Shown piece by piece: positions 1-2,924 of a stretch of DNA of 36,103 nt (position 1 is the first letter of the stretch; each line of letters begins with the position of its first letter). Below the pieces are notes generated by a model. The model was given only the letters and a program-made list of their open reading frames with translations. It was not told the DNA's origin and searched no databases. The position numbers were made by a program, and so were the translations under genes. The stretch covers positions 1-36,103 of the IMG/VR virus record IMGVR_UViG_3300027987_000004, one strand, 5' to 3'. The stretch is from a virus.

Positions 1-402
1 GGTGAGGAAGCAATACGGTTCAAGCATTTCAAGGAGCAGTATCACAAGGAGAGATTGATTGAACCACTCAAGCAGTACAAGCTTGCCAAAGGGGCTGTCT
101 ATTCCACAAGTGCTGACCATCTACGGTCCCTCCGACCAAATCGAGAGACTAAGGCAGTCCTTCAACAGCTTGCTCGATACAGCGAGATTGACAAACTCAC
201 CGGGACTTATCTACGGAAACTCCCGGCACTTATTGAGACAATGGATTGGCCCGAAGATCGAATACACGGACAGTTTAACCAGTGTGTCGTTATCACTGGA
301 CGTCTGTCGTCTTCTAAGCCAAACCGGCAAAACGAACCCCCTGACGTGAAGCTGTACTTCGAATCGGAGTTCCCCGATGATACTGATTATAGCGGGGAGT
401 AG
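1..402 (+). CDS. DNA polymerase A, N-terminal fragment (5' partial)
   Basis: The frame is already open at base 1, so the start lies outside the window. The visible part is the thumb/early palm of a phage family-A DNA polymerase. It has the pattern LxGTYLxxLPxLI, then IHGQFNQ, then TGRLSSSKPNRQN, which in this family directly precedes motif A. The expected palm strand and catalytic Asp are missing: after VKLYFESEF the frame runs into a SLOG gene starting at 377 and stops at 400-402. The last residues (about PDDTDYSGE) are read through the start of that gene and are probably not ancestral. The rest of the palm and fingers resumes at 705 in another frame. The two parts probably act as a split enzyme. 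Family assignment is strong; whether the parts assemble is inference. Confidence 0.85.
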   Translation, partial: GEEAIRFKHFKEQYHKERLIEPLKQYKLAKGAVYSTSADHLRSLRPNRETKAVLQQLARYSEIDKLTGTYLRKLPALIETMDWPEDRIHGQFNQCVVITGRLSSSKPNRQNEPPDVKLYFESEFPDDTDYSGE

Positions 403-721
403 AAATGTCAGAATCACAGTGGAAGACATTGATCGTGTGCTACGATCCACCCGGAATCCTGTTACAGAAATCGTATCTGGCGGCGCGAGAGGGCCTGACA
501 CTACGGCTATTGCTTGGGCTGTTAGGGAAGGGATGCAACATGTTGTGTTCCATCCCGGATGGAAGCAGCACGGACGAGCAGCAGGGGGAGTGCGGAATCT
601 CAAGATGGCTAACTACGCCGACGCCCTGCTCGCCTTCTGGGACGGTAAATCTAACGGAACCCGCAATATGATTGAACACATGCGCGGTCTAGGTAAGCCG
701 GTCCATGTTGTTAAACGCTGA
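377..721 (+). CDS. SLOG-superfamily (DUF2493, YspA-like) protein inserted in the polymerase gene
   Basis: This is a complete 114-residue protein. It begins with the Rossmann-type strand MILIIAGSR and contains SGGARGPDTTAIAWA, then HPGWKQHGRAAGGVRN, then LLAFWDGKSNGTRNMIEHM and a final GKPVHVV. These are the conserved blocks of the DUF2493/YspA-like SLOG family, thought to bind nucleotide-derived ligands or to process nucleotides. The ATG has a GGAG site 7 nt upstream. The gene sits exactly between the two halves of DNA polymerase, overlapping the first by 26 nt and the second by 17 nt, in a third reading frame. It could serve nucleotide metabolism, tune the polymerase, or be a selfish insert; sequence alone does not decide. 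Confidence 0.85.
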   Translation: MILIIAGSRNVRITVEDIDRVLRSTRNPVTEIVSGGARGPDTTAIAWAVREGMQHVVFHPGWKQHGRAAGGVRNLKMANYADALLAFWDGKSNGTRNMIEHMRGLGKPVHVVKR

Positions 722-1469
722 TGTCAAAGGGCTCGAAGTGGTTGGATGCGCATGGCTGTCCGCTGATCCCGTCCTTCGGAAAGAAATCCTTGCGGGAGAA
801 GATGTTCATGGAAACAACCAACGAGATCTCAAACTCCCAAGCCGACTCATCGCAAAGAAGTTCAAGTTCCGATTCATCTACGGAGGTACAGCTTACTCTT
901 ACGCTCACGATCCGGACTTCTTCGGAGTCAGCCGAAGTGAAAAGTATTGGCAGCGGGTCATTGATGCGTACTATGAAAAGTATGCTGGAATTAGAGGCTG
1001 GCATAGCAGACTACTCGATGGAGTGGCGCGTACGGGGAGGCTCGATATGCCCACAGGACGGTTTTATGTCTTCGAGCGGGATGTTCGCGGTCAGCTACCC
1101 GAAACCTGCATCAAGAACTACCCCGTCCAAGGACTCGGAGCCGACCTCGTTGCAATATCAAGGGTTCGACTCCGAACCTACCTCAGACAAGACCACCTAC
1201 TACAGGAGGAAGTTCGACGAGGACGGGGGTACAAACTGGTAAACACCATACATGACTCCATCGTGGTTGACAGCCACCCGGATTCATGGTATAATATAGG
1301 CGTGTACTTGGAAAAGGCTGTGGAAGAAGTGCCTCAAAACTTCTCCAAACTGTTTGGGTGTGACTTCGACCTGCCGATTCTGGCAGAGCTGAAAATTGGC
1401 CCGAATCTTAACCAAATCAAGGAGATAAAGCTAGATGCTCATCAAGGTACTTGGCACTACGTCCAGTGA
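705..1469 (+). CDS. DNA polymerase A, C-terminal (palm/fingers) fragment
   Basis: The 254-residue product carries all three polymerase motifs of family A. Motif A is NADVKGLE near the N terminus, with its catalytic Asp. Motif B is on the O-helix, SRLIAKKFKFRFIYGG, with the Arg, Lys and Tyr-Gly in place. Motif C is TIHDSIVVD. The C terminus VPxNFSKLFG...FDLPILAELKIGPNLN matches the normal family end, so the active site is intact. The frame is closed upstream by TAG at 690-692, so ATG 705 is the first usable start; only a weak AGG precedes it. Translation may depend on coupling to the SLOG gene, which ends at 721. The last 35 nt overlap the SSB gene. A polymerase beginning just before motif A cannot work without the upstream fragment. 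Confidence 0.88.
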   Translation: MLLNADVKGLEVVGCAWLSADPVLRKEILAGEDVHGNNQRDLKLPSRLIAKKFKFRFIYGGTAYSYAHDPDFFGVSRSEKYWQRVIDAYYEKYAGIRGWHSRLLDGVARTGRLDMPTGRFYVFERDVRGQLPETCIKNYPVQGLGADLVAISRVRLRTYLRQDHLLQEEVRRGRGYKLVNTIHDSIVVDSHPDSWYNIGVYLEKAVEEVPQNFSKLFGCDFDLPILAELKIGPNLNQIKEIKLDAHQGTWHYVQ

Positions 1470-1938
1470 AGCAAAGTTTGGGAAGTACAAGAAGGTATAC
1501 CCGGTAGTTGATGTGAACTATGAGCGGGACGGCAAGACGGAGACTAAGACTCTTCGCGGATTTTCGTACCCGGAAGTAGTGAAGTTCTTTTCTGACCTCC
1601 AAAATTTCCCTACCGTTGTGGACGTCAAGTCCGAGAAGAACGACAAGGGGTTTTGGGATTGGGTAAAAGTAGAAGAGGCAGACGGTAACGTGGTAGACAC
1701 ACAAAAGAAATCGAGTCCGGAGGCATCCGGAGCCAAGAAACGGAATGTGTTTGAGGAACGGGATCTTCGTATTGCTCGTCAGTCCAGCCTAGAGCGGGCG
1801 ATTACGATTGAGTGTCACAACAATCAAAAGGGTGGCGTTGACCCGGATCGTTGTGTGGCTTTGGCTGAACAATTTGCGCAGTGGGTTCTGCGCCCTGATG
1901 TGTCGGTAGACGACCCATCTGATGACATCCCCTTCTAA
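1435..1938 (+). CDS. Single-stranded DNA-binding protein
   Basis: A 167-residue protein that probably binds ssDNA at the replication fork. Residues 1-85 form a beta-rich OB-fold-like region with alternating aromatic and basic residues (KKVYPVVDVNYERDGK, then FWDWVKVEE). A charged linker follows, and the protein ends in an acidic tail, VDDPSDDIPF. That closely resembles the DDDIPF-type C termini with which SSB proteins recruit partners. The start ATG has AAGGAG just upstream and overlaps the polymerase end. The position between polymerase and 5'-3' exonuclease fits. The OB fold is inferred from pattern, not proven. Confidence 0.75.
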   Translation: MLIKVLGTTSSEAKFGKYKKVYPVVDVNYERDGKTETKTLRGFSYPEVVKFFSDLQNFPTVVDVKSEKNDKGFWDWVKVEEADGNVVDTQKKSSPEASGAKKRNVFEERDLRIARQSSLERAITIECHNNQKGGVDPDRCVALAEQFAQWVLRPDVSVDDPSDDIPF

Positions 1939-2128
1939 GACTAAGTTTCGGTGGGCCGTCTTGGTATTGGACGGCCCCCAACTTATCGAGATGGAACCGG
2001 ATGAGAGGGGCAATCTTTACGGGGTAACTAAGGAAGCGGCAGTTCAAACCCTGATTGAGTGGCATCTTGATAAGATTGCCAGTCTGCAAGAAATCGATTG
2101 CTCACAAGATGACGAAACTACTGATTGA
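1922..2128 (+). CDS. Small hypothetical protein in replication operon
   Basis: A 68-residue, mostly acidic protein with no family I recognise. The N-terminal half is beta-like (FRWAVLVLDGPQLIEMEPDERG), followed by a helix (AAVQTLIEWHLDKIASLQ). It starts 17 nt inside the SSB end and overlaps the exonuclease start at 2109 by 20 nt. This is typical of the translational coupling across this operon and supports it being real. Function unknown. Confidence 0.55.
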   Translation: MTSPSKTKFRWAVLVLDGPQLIEMEPDERGNLYGVTKEAAVQTLIEWHLDKIASLQEIDCSQDDETTD

Positions 2129-2924
2129 TGGTGATCTAGTTGCGTTTCGTTGTGCCGCCTCGGCGGAGAACGATAACGAAGCTATCGCCATCTCGAGGGT
2201 AGAGGAATCCATCCGGCAGATCTGTGAGGCCTTGGGGACGATGGACTTCACCATCTTCCTCACAGGCCCGGACAACTTCCGAAAGGAGATCTGTCCTGAC
2301 TACAAGGCGAATCGAAAGGACAAGCCCAAGCCGAAGTTTCTGTCGGCGTGTGCGGACTTCTTAATTGAGAACTACGGGGCTGTTAGGTGCACCGGACATG
2401 AAGCGGACGATGCTCTAGGATACTCACAGACTAAGGACACCATTATCGTGTCCTACGACAAGGACTTGCGGCAGATCGCGGGGAAGCATTACGACTTCAC
2501 AAAGGGTGAACTCACGACTGTGGAAGAGAAACGCGGCCTGCGCACGTTCTACGAACAGATGCTCATCGGTGACAAGGGAGACAACATCGTGGGTGTCGCA
2601 GGTATTGGAAAGGCGAAAGCCCCCCGGTACCTAGAGGGCTGTGAAACCGAAGAAGAAATGTTCGATGTGGTTCGCGAACTATACAACGACGACATGCGGT
2701 TCCTTCGAAATGGGCAACTGCTTTGGATCTGGAAGACAAAGGGAGGGATATGGAACACGCCTTTACTTTCAAAGCTGGAAGGCAGTATAAAACAGTCGGA
2801 GGCAATCGAGTCCGAATCTATGCTAGAGATGGAGGCGGAGAGCATCCACTACATGGAGCCTATTGGGACGAACACCACCAACAATGGAACGCCTGCCAGT
2901 GGACCCTCGACGGATTCTACGTGA
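2109..2924 (+). CDS. 5'-3' exonuclease (FEN/T7 gp6-like)
   Basis: A structure-specific 5' nuclease that would degrade host DNA or remove primers. Metal-binding and helical-arch motifs appear in order: LLIDGDLVAFR near the N terminus, CPDYKANRKDKPKP, GHEADDALGYSQ, VSYDKDLRQI, and the helix-turn-helix block GDKGDNIVGVAGIGKAKA. ATG 2109 puts IDGD at residue 6, as expected; an upstream in-frame ATG at 2055 would only add residues read through the previous gene. The family-like part ends near WIWKTKGGIWNTP (about 2770). The last 50 or so residues are Ser/Glu/Thr-rich and lie entirely over the next gene in another frame, so they look like an acquired tail. Confidence 0.9.
   Translation: MTKLLIDGDLVAFRCAASAENDNEAIAISRVEESIRQICEALGTMDFTIFLTGPDNFRKEICPDYKANRKDKPKPKFLSACADFLIENYGAVRCTGHEADDALGYSQTKDTIIVSYDKDLRQIAGKHYDFTKGELTTVEEKRGLRTFYEQMLIGDKGDNIVGVAGIGKAKAPRYLEGCETEEEMFDVVRELYNDDMRFLRNGQLLWIWKTKGGIWNTPLLSKLEGSIKQSEAIESESMLEMEAESIHYMEPIGTNTTNNGTPASGPSTDST

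Follow-up and report, generated by a model that had tools for sequence, protein, structure and literature searches.

The viral contig analyzed here, 36,103 nucleotides that are taken at their full length as the window, probably encodes a family A DNA polymerase made of two subunits that re-associate non-covalently and go back to one ancestral gene fission, with the SLOG gene between them being a separately translated passenger. The elements involved, with the support for each in brackets, are as follows.

1-402, + strand: N-terminal piece of the family A DNA polymerase (PF00476, E 3.1e-17; alignment with complete N pieces of relatives)
377-402, + strand: overlap of the N piece and the SLOG gene, 26 nt (ORF coordinates)
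377-721, + strand: complete SLOG gene of the YspA/YAcAr family, DUF2493-like, 114 aa (PF10686, E 1.5e-9; phrog_289, E 3e-22)
705-721, + strand: overlap of the SLOG gene and the C piece, 17 nt (ORF coordinates)
705-1469, + strand: C-terminal polymerase piece, 254 aa, with motif A, fingers and motif C (PF00476, E 4.3e-19; predicted fold)
720-722, + strand: motif A catalytic Asp codon, D6 of the C piece, equivalent to Asp705 of E. coli Pol I (the same in all 45 aligned C pieces)
1251-1256, + strand: motif C His-Asp codons, H183-D184, equivalent to His881-Asp882 of E. coli Pol I (the same in all 45 aligned C pieces)
1435-1938, + strand: RQSSLERA protein, the next gene of the replication block, given as context only (kept behind the C piece in relatives, at 4900-5373 in L001 and 4705-5244 in L003)

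The three ORFs stand where an earlier note on this DNA had placed them: the N piece, SLOG and the C piece lie in frames 1, 2 and 0, every step being +1, and the two overlaps have the lengths that it gave. Complete, as also claimed there, the SLOG gene has its own ATG with a GGAG 7 nt upstream and matches PF10686 (YAcAr) with a score of 37.9 bits versus a cut-off of 28.2; in its part outside both overlaps, the other two forward frames contain 8 and 2 stops. The N piece, which comprises the thumb and the first palm strand with the GRLSSSKPNRQN motif and ends in VKLYFESEFPDDTDYSGE followed by the stop codon, is open at the 5′ edge of the contig; because the 36,103-base record, a whole virus contig, begins inside this piece, its first part is missing from the window, and the 3′-5′ exonuclease part lies beyond the edge. 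No second N-piece match occurs elsewhere in the 36,103-base window.

The two polymerase pieces match PF00476 in order, covering profile positions 44-132 in the N piece and 154-379 in the C piece, and these matches, as well as that of SLOG, are above the curated cut-offs and therefore far beyond chance. Motifs A (NADVKGLE), B (SRLIAKKFKFRFIYGG) and C (NTIHDS) are all found in the C piece, whose fingers residues R47, K51, F55 and Y59 correspond to R754, K758, F762 and Y766 of Klenow. D6, R47, K51, F55, H183 and D184 are invariant among the 45 aligned C pieces, in agreement with the previous observation that this piece carries all catalytic motifs, namely the motif A Asp, the motif B Arg/Lys/Phe and the motif C His-Asp; with all catalytic residues invariant, a dead polymerase is rejected.

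Folds were predicted for the pieces as separate single chains, using the 45-row alignment (A7) for the C piece and locus L169 (A8) for the N piece. The predicted C piece of the window has a pLDDT of 95.8, starts with the motif A strand (residues 2-8) and is placed by VIA-align on residues 648-876 of Bst Pol I (Z 23.3, rmsd 2.1, 216 residues); the predicted N piece of L169, with a pLDDT of 93.0, is placed on residues 313-644 of the same enzyme (Z 21.4, rmsd 3.2, 319 residues), its lowest stretch (residues about 361-370, pLDDT 62) being the GRLSSS loop, which would face the missing C piece. The predicted pieces thus tile Bst Pol I 313-644 and 648-876, that is, the large fragment minus about three linker residues, so that the statement that almost no polymerase residue is missing holds structurally, with the N piece being that of the SLOG-bearing L169. 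The cut had also been correctly assigned to the palm just before the motif A Asp, as Asp705 of E. coli Pol I is D6 of the C piece.

Relatives were gathered from a phage collection and IMG/VR, duplicates were removed and the spacing from the N-piece stop to the C-piece start was measured. Among the matches listed, the polymerase is split at one identical point in all 166 non-redundant relatives with both pieces readable, so that the junction, for which a search of related genomes had been suggested, recurs in every one of them; an intact polymerase is found in 0 of these 166 listed relatives, in a survey that took the best 80 loci per scan and could miss a rare intact member. C pieces begin with M-x-x-x-x-D (M-L-x-x-x-D) at one place, and N pieces end in ..F.SRY (..LF.SRY..). 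The split is present in the cultured, replicating isolates MEP401, MEP402 and Alcaligenes phage QDWS535, in the last of which the pieces overlap by 1 nt with no insert. In a tree of 62 representative C pieces and six outside sequences, the split rows form one side of a branch (SH-aLRT 98), corresponding to one change across the 62 C-piece rows; intact polymerases are those of HMO-2011, HTVC033P, Alteromonas phage H4/4 and Leaf. With the MEP401-type split clade the window has in common the cut point and the start of the C piece at the motif A strand, and in the tree it is placed within this clade. The existence of PHROG families for halves that end or start at the split point (phrog_12241, phrog_9556 and phrog_2573) hints at a recurrent split.

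The spacing between the pieces ranges from −17 to +3598 nt over the 166 loci (among the matches listed). It is at most 1 nt, with no insert, in 44 of the 166 listed loci, whose pieces overlap by 17, 14, 11, 4 or 1 nt or abut; the other listed loci comprise 24 with 2-60 nt, 65 with 61-350 nt and 33 with more than 350 nt, and a first, smaller count of 115 loci among the matches listed gave the same picture. Since the split exists in relatives without an insert and predates SLOG, SLOG did not split the gene, and the description of a polymerase split by it has to be abandoned; judged from the sequences, the order of events is fission first and tenants later.

The gaps contain 142 ORFs in 88 loci, which fall into 72 clusters (among the matches listed). 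The largest cluster is that of a small acidic protein with 44 ORFs, including gp14 of MEP402, which matches no Pfam or PHROG family; this commonest tenant (L006 4339-4572 and 43 other gap ORFs) is present in early-branching members too, and it may be an original third partner of the split polymerase. HNH-type nucleases (NUMOD3/HNH, HNH_3 and PHROG endonuclease families) occupy the gap of at least 14 loci, and further tenants include a C5 cytosine methylase and more in L008, a phosphatase-like protein in L166 and an RNA ligase fragment in L162. By eye, gap nuclease genes appear to have their own sigma70-like promoter (L090 3200-3290, L026 5470-5510 and L040 430-470), which in L090 reads TTGACA-17-TATAAT. 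Examined for a split by a homing endonuclease, the junction of the window has no nuclease, and its gap holds SLOG alone. SLOG is found in the gap of the window and of L169 only (2 of 166, among the matches listed); the two loci branch successively on the C-piece tree, and both SLOG genes overlap the C piece by 17 nt. The option of a selfish insert tolerated by reassembly is thereby met halfway: HNH nucleases do enter the gap in relatives, but the split came before SLOG and occurs insert-free.

In the two-subunit enzyme that we favor, the N subunit would supply the 3′-5′ exonuclease, the thumb and the first palm strand, and the C subunit, whose own starting Met lies on the strand of the motif A Asp, would supply the fingers and motif C. 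The cut would fall in the turn that links two strands of the palm, at the cost of hardly any residue, and the halves would re-associate non-covalently in the palm into a single active site, where the motif A and motif C Asp residues of the C piece would be brought together with the N piece's thumb and exonuclease. Fission would most simply have occurred once, in the ancestor of a clade of freshwater and marine phages (MEP401-type and allies), leaving the halves as adjacent, translationally coupled genes whose boundary would have become a site of gene gain and loss; on the branch of the window, a SLOG tenant with its own start would be translated between the halves and receive its stop from the motif A codons. 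The overlaps suggest such translational coupling, and the pieces and SLOG are probably translated separately. Re-assembly and activity of the pieces are likely by analogy, considering that gp43A and gp43B of Aeromonas phage 25 co-purify and are polymerase-active, and that the NrdA of Aeh1, which is split as well, has full activity (PMC2988022). Where the earlier note had proposed a two-subunit polymerase with a SLOG partner, the two-subunit part is supported by the conserved split, the variable gap and the complete predicted folds, and the partnership is unlikely.

The passenger role of SLOG is the weakest step of the argument. SLOG proteins include enzymes and nucleotide sensors, and for those of viruses a role against ADP-ribose-type immune signals has been proposed (PMC9503650); the copy in the window, whose GSR, SGGARGPD, PGW..GR.AG..RN and WDGKSNGT motifs are conserved in the alignment, is probably a passenger and not a part of the polymerase, its most likely function being to bind nucleotides or ADP-ribose derivatives in opposition to host defence. 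A single-sequence search for its close relatives gave one distant match, and a PDB sequence search with it gave no significant match. We regard it as improbable that SLOG is instead a working third subunit or regulator that has a nucleotide-type ligand and serves to tune or assemble the two-piece enzyme, as its intact motifs and the retention of its position and overlap in L169, at 50% identity in the equivalent place, might indicate. An independent one-ORF fusion of SLOG to polymerase A exists in Pseudoalteromonas phage PY6 and Vibrio phage 367.14, SLOG lies directly upstream of a PY6-type polymerase in L313 and L314, which belong to another phage group, and phage SLOG fusions to nucleic-acid enzymes are on record (PMC9503650). 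Against such a role speak the occurrence of SLOG in two of the 166 listed family members, close relatives being insert-free or carrying other genes, and the finding that the nearest polymerase relatives of PY6 begin to match at about residue 120-170 and have no SLOG. An enrichment of SLOG next to polymerase A is unconvincing, with a polymerase A match within 3 kb in six of the 80 nearest SLOG loci (best 80), about chance level by estimate. Similarly doubtful is the more specific proposal that SLOG, made between the halves, is a ligand-sensing accessory subunit that aids assembly or switches replication on a nucleotide or ADP-ribose signal of host defence; if true, the SLOG-polymerase fusion of unrelated phages would be the same ligand-sensing device in one chain, and a functional link would join replication to nucleotide signalling.

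Three readings in which the polymerase would be continuous after all are disfavoured. That a self-splicing intron, or what remains of one, occupies the gap and the halves are joined in RNA was proposed for MEP401 and MEP402 and left open there (PMC10580990), and some relatives do have group I introns inside the C piece (L155, E 1.9e-8; L094, E 1.1e-4); those matches lie at other places, however, and the window (1-2200) has no Rfam match even at E 10. At gathering thresholds, Rfam gave nothing in 14 sources, including the intron-like L178, and the laxer search was used because these thresholds missed L178, which looks intron-bearing; in window 1-2200 it revealed no group I catalytic core in the gap at up to E 10, with a limited sensitivity that also missed the likely intron of Bacillus phage Goe26 (L178). 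The gap is moreover almost entirely coding, both pieces have stop and start codons at the junction, and the 44 gapless listed relatives, which bear together with the insert-bearing ones on the question raised for MEP401, argue against an intron that we hold to be very improbable. The group I introns of the relatives are located near motif B of the C piece, at 6457-6777 in L155, together with an HNH gene, and at 2346-2577 in L094; the C piece of L283 is interrupted too.

Even less credible is one long polypeptide made through two +1 frameshifts, with SLOG as an inserted domain, to which the two successive +1 steps and the overlapping ORFs might point. The stop codon of SLOG, TGA at 719-721, is formed out of frame by the motif A Ala-Asp codons (GCT GAT), and an out-of-frame TGA at nt 15-17, composed of the last base of codon 5 plus the first two bases of the codon for Asp, is present in 69 of 168 C pieces; because the motif A codons spell this TGA, an upstream ORF in the right frame stops there. 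A spacing of −17 is the commonest one (19 of 166 loci, among the matches listed), and the 17-nt overlap reads as a by-product of the motif A codons and no sign of fusion. Spacings of every phase between −17 and +3598 nt in the listed relatives, many of them insert-free, likewise disfavor the frameshifted fusion that had been put forward as an option; the first gap ORF of L169 does not overlap the N piece, and an extra domain between those two palm strands would be near the active site. A base-call or assembly error in an ordinary polymerase gene, conceivable for one metagenome contig, has next to no likelihood, given that an indel cannot create a whole gene of 114 codons that has a match at Pfam level and that the same split recurs in 165 other listed loci, isolate genomes included.

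The proposed two-subunit polymerase of the window has several counterparts. For the MEP401-type phages (Zobellviridae; MEP401 ORF13/15), a polymerase in two parts, with a small ORF in its gap, was described in 2023, the split being present in most group I genomes of that study (PMC10580990); they belong to the same polymerase clade, are cut at the same point before motif A and have a small gene between the halves, but this encodes a 77-aa acidic protein whereas that of the window encodes SLOG, and the insert-free members found here argue against the intron that their authors left open. Gene 43 of the T4-like Aeromonas phages 25 and 44RR is likewise split into two polypeptides that must re-assemble (43A/43B), with a homing endonuclease or an untranslated spacer at the junction and fragments that co-purify and are active (PMC2988022); unlike the window, it encodes a family B polymerase with another fold and cut site, and no SLOG is present. 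Vibrio phage ICP2 likewise needs two neighbouring genes (gp50/gp51; L173 1744-3837) to encode its family A polymerase, which is cut about 20 residues further upstream, with the N piece ending in PNLQNISN and a stop and the C piece starting with MSDIKRCIISRF; because of this other cut site and its grouping with an intact polymerase in the C-piece tree, it probably represents a separate fission. In T4 topoisomerase (genes 39/60, mobA insertion), fission is associated with a mobile nuclease at the junction and the enzyme is re-assembled from fragments, but this is another enzyme and its nuclease is still there, whereas the junction of the window has none. PY6 and Vibrio phage 367.14 resemble the window in having a same-family SLOG beside a family A polymerase; unlike it, they have SLOG as the N-terminal part of a polymerase that is unsplit and distantly related, within a single ORF (L171 5001-7715 and L172 4938-7619, respectively), and Vibrio phage 97.13 matches in two pieces. 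A fixed split is unusual; that a phage polymerase becomes split is nothing new and has already been published for this clade, and our literature search found no report of a SLOG tenant, of a gap survey or of SLOG-polymerase fusions.

A replicative polymerase that is two-piece throughout a clade and cut beside its catalytic Asp amounts to a natural test of how divisible a polymerase is, and the gap, where nucleases and other genes are gained and lost, allows the proposed sequence of fission and then tenants to be tested.

Six divergent relatives share the same 6-nt insertion in motif A (L026 6001, L059 6001, L145 7016, L149 6034, L162 3891 and L167 6109), of the form CT[N-TA(A/G)-C(C/T)]N|GA, which yields D-x-x-x-L-STOP-L/P-E and leaves the remaining C piece intact. 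In L026, L059, L149 and L167, a nuclease gene is located just upstream, behind a truncated copy of the C-piece start, and these loci recall T4 gene 60, with its nuclease insertion and ribosome-bypassed stretch (PMC5009743). At the same motif A position, L030 (about 3650) and L040 (about 955) have a 4-nt insertion that shifts the frame behind DAKQL, with the same nuclease family upstream.
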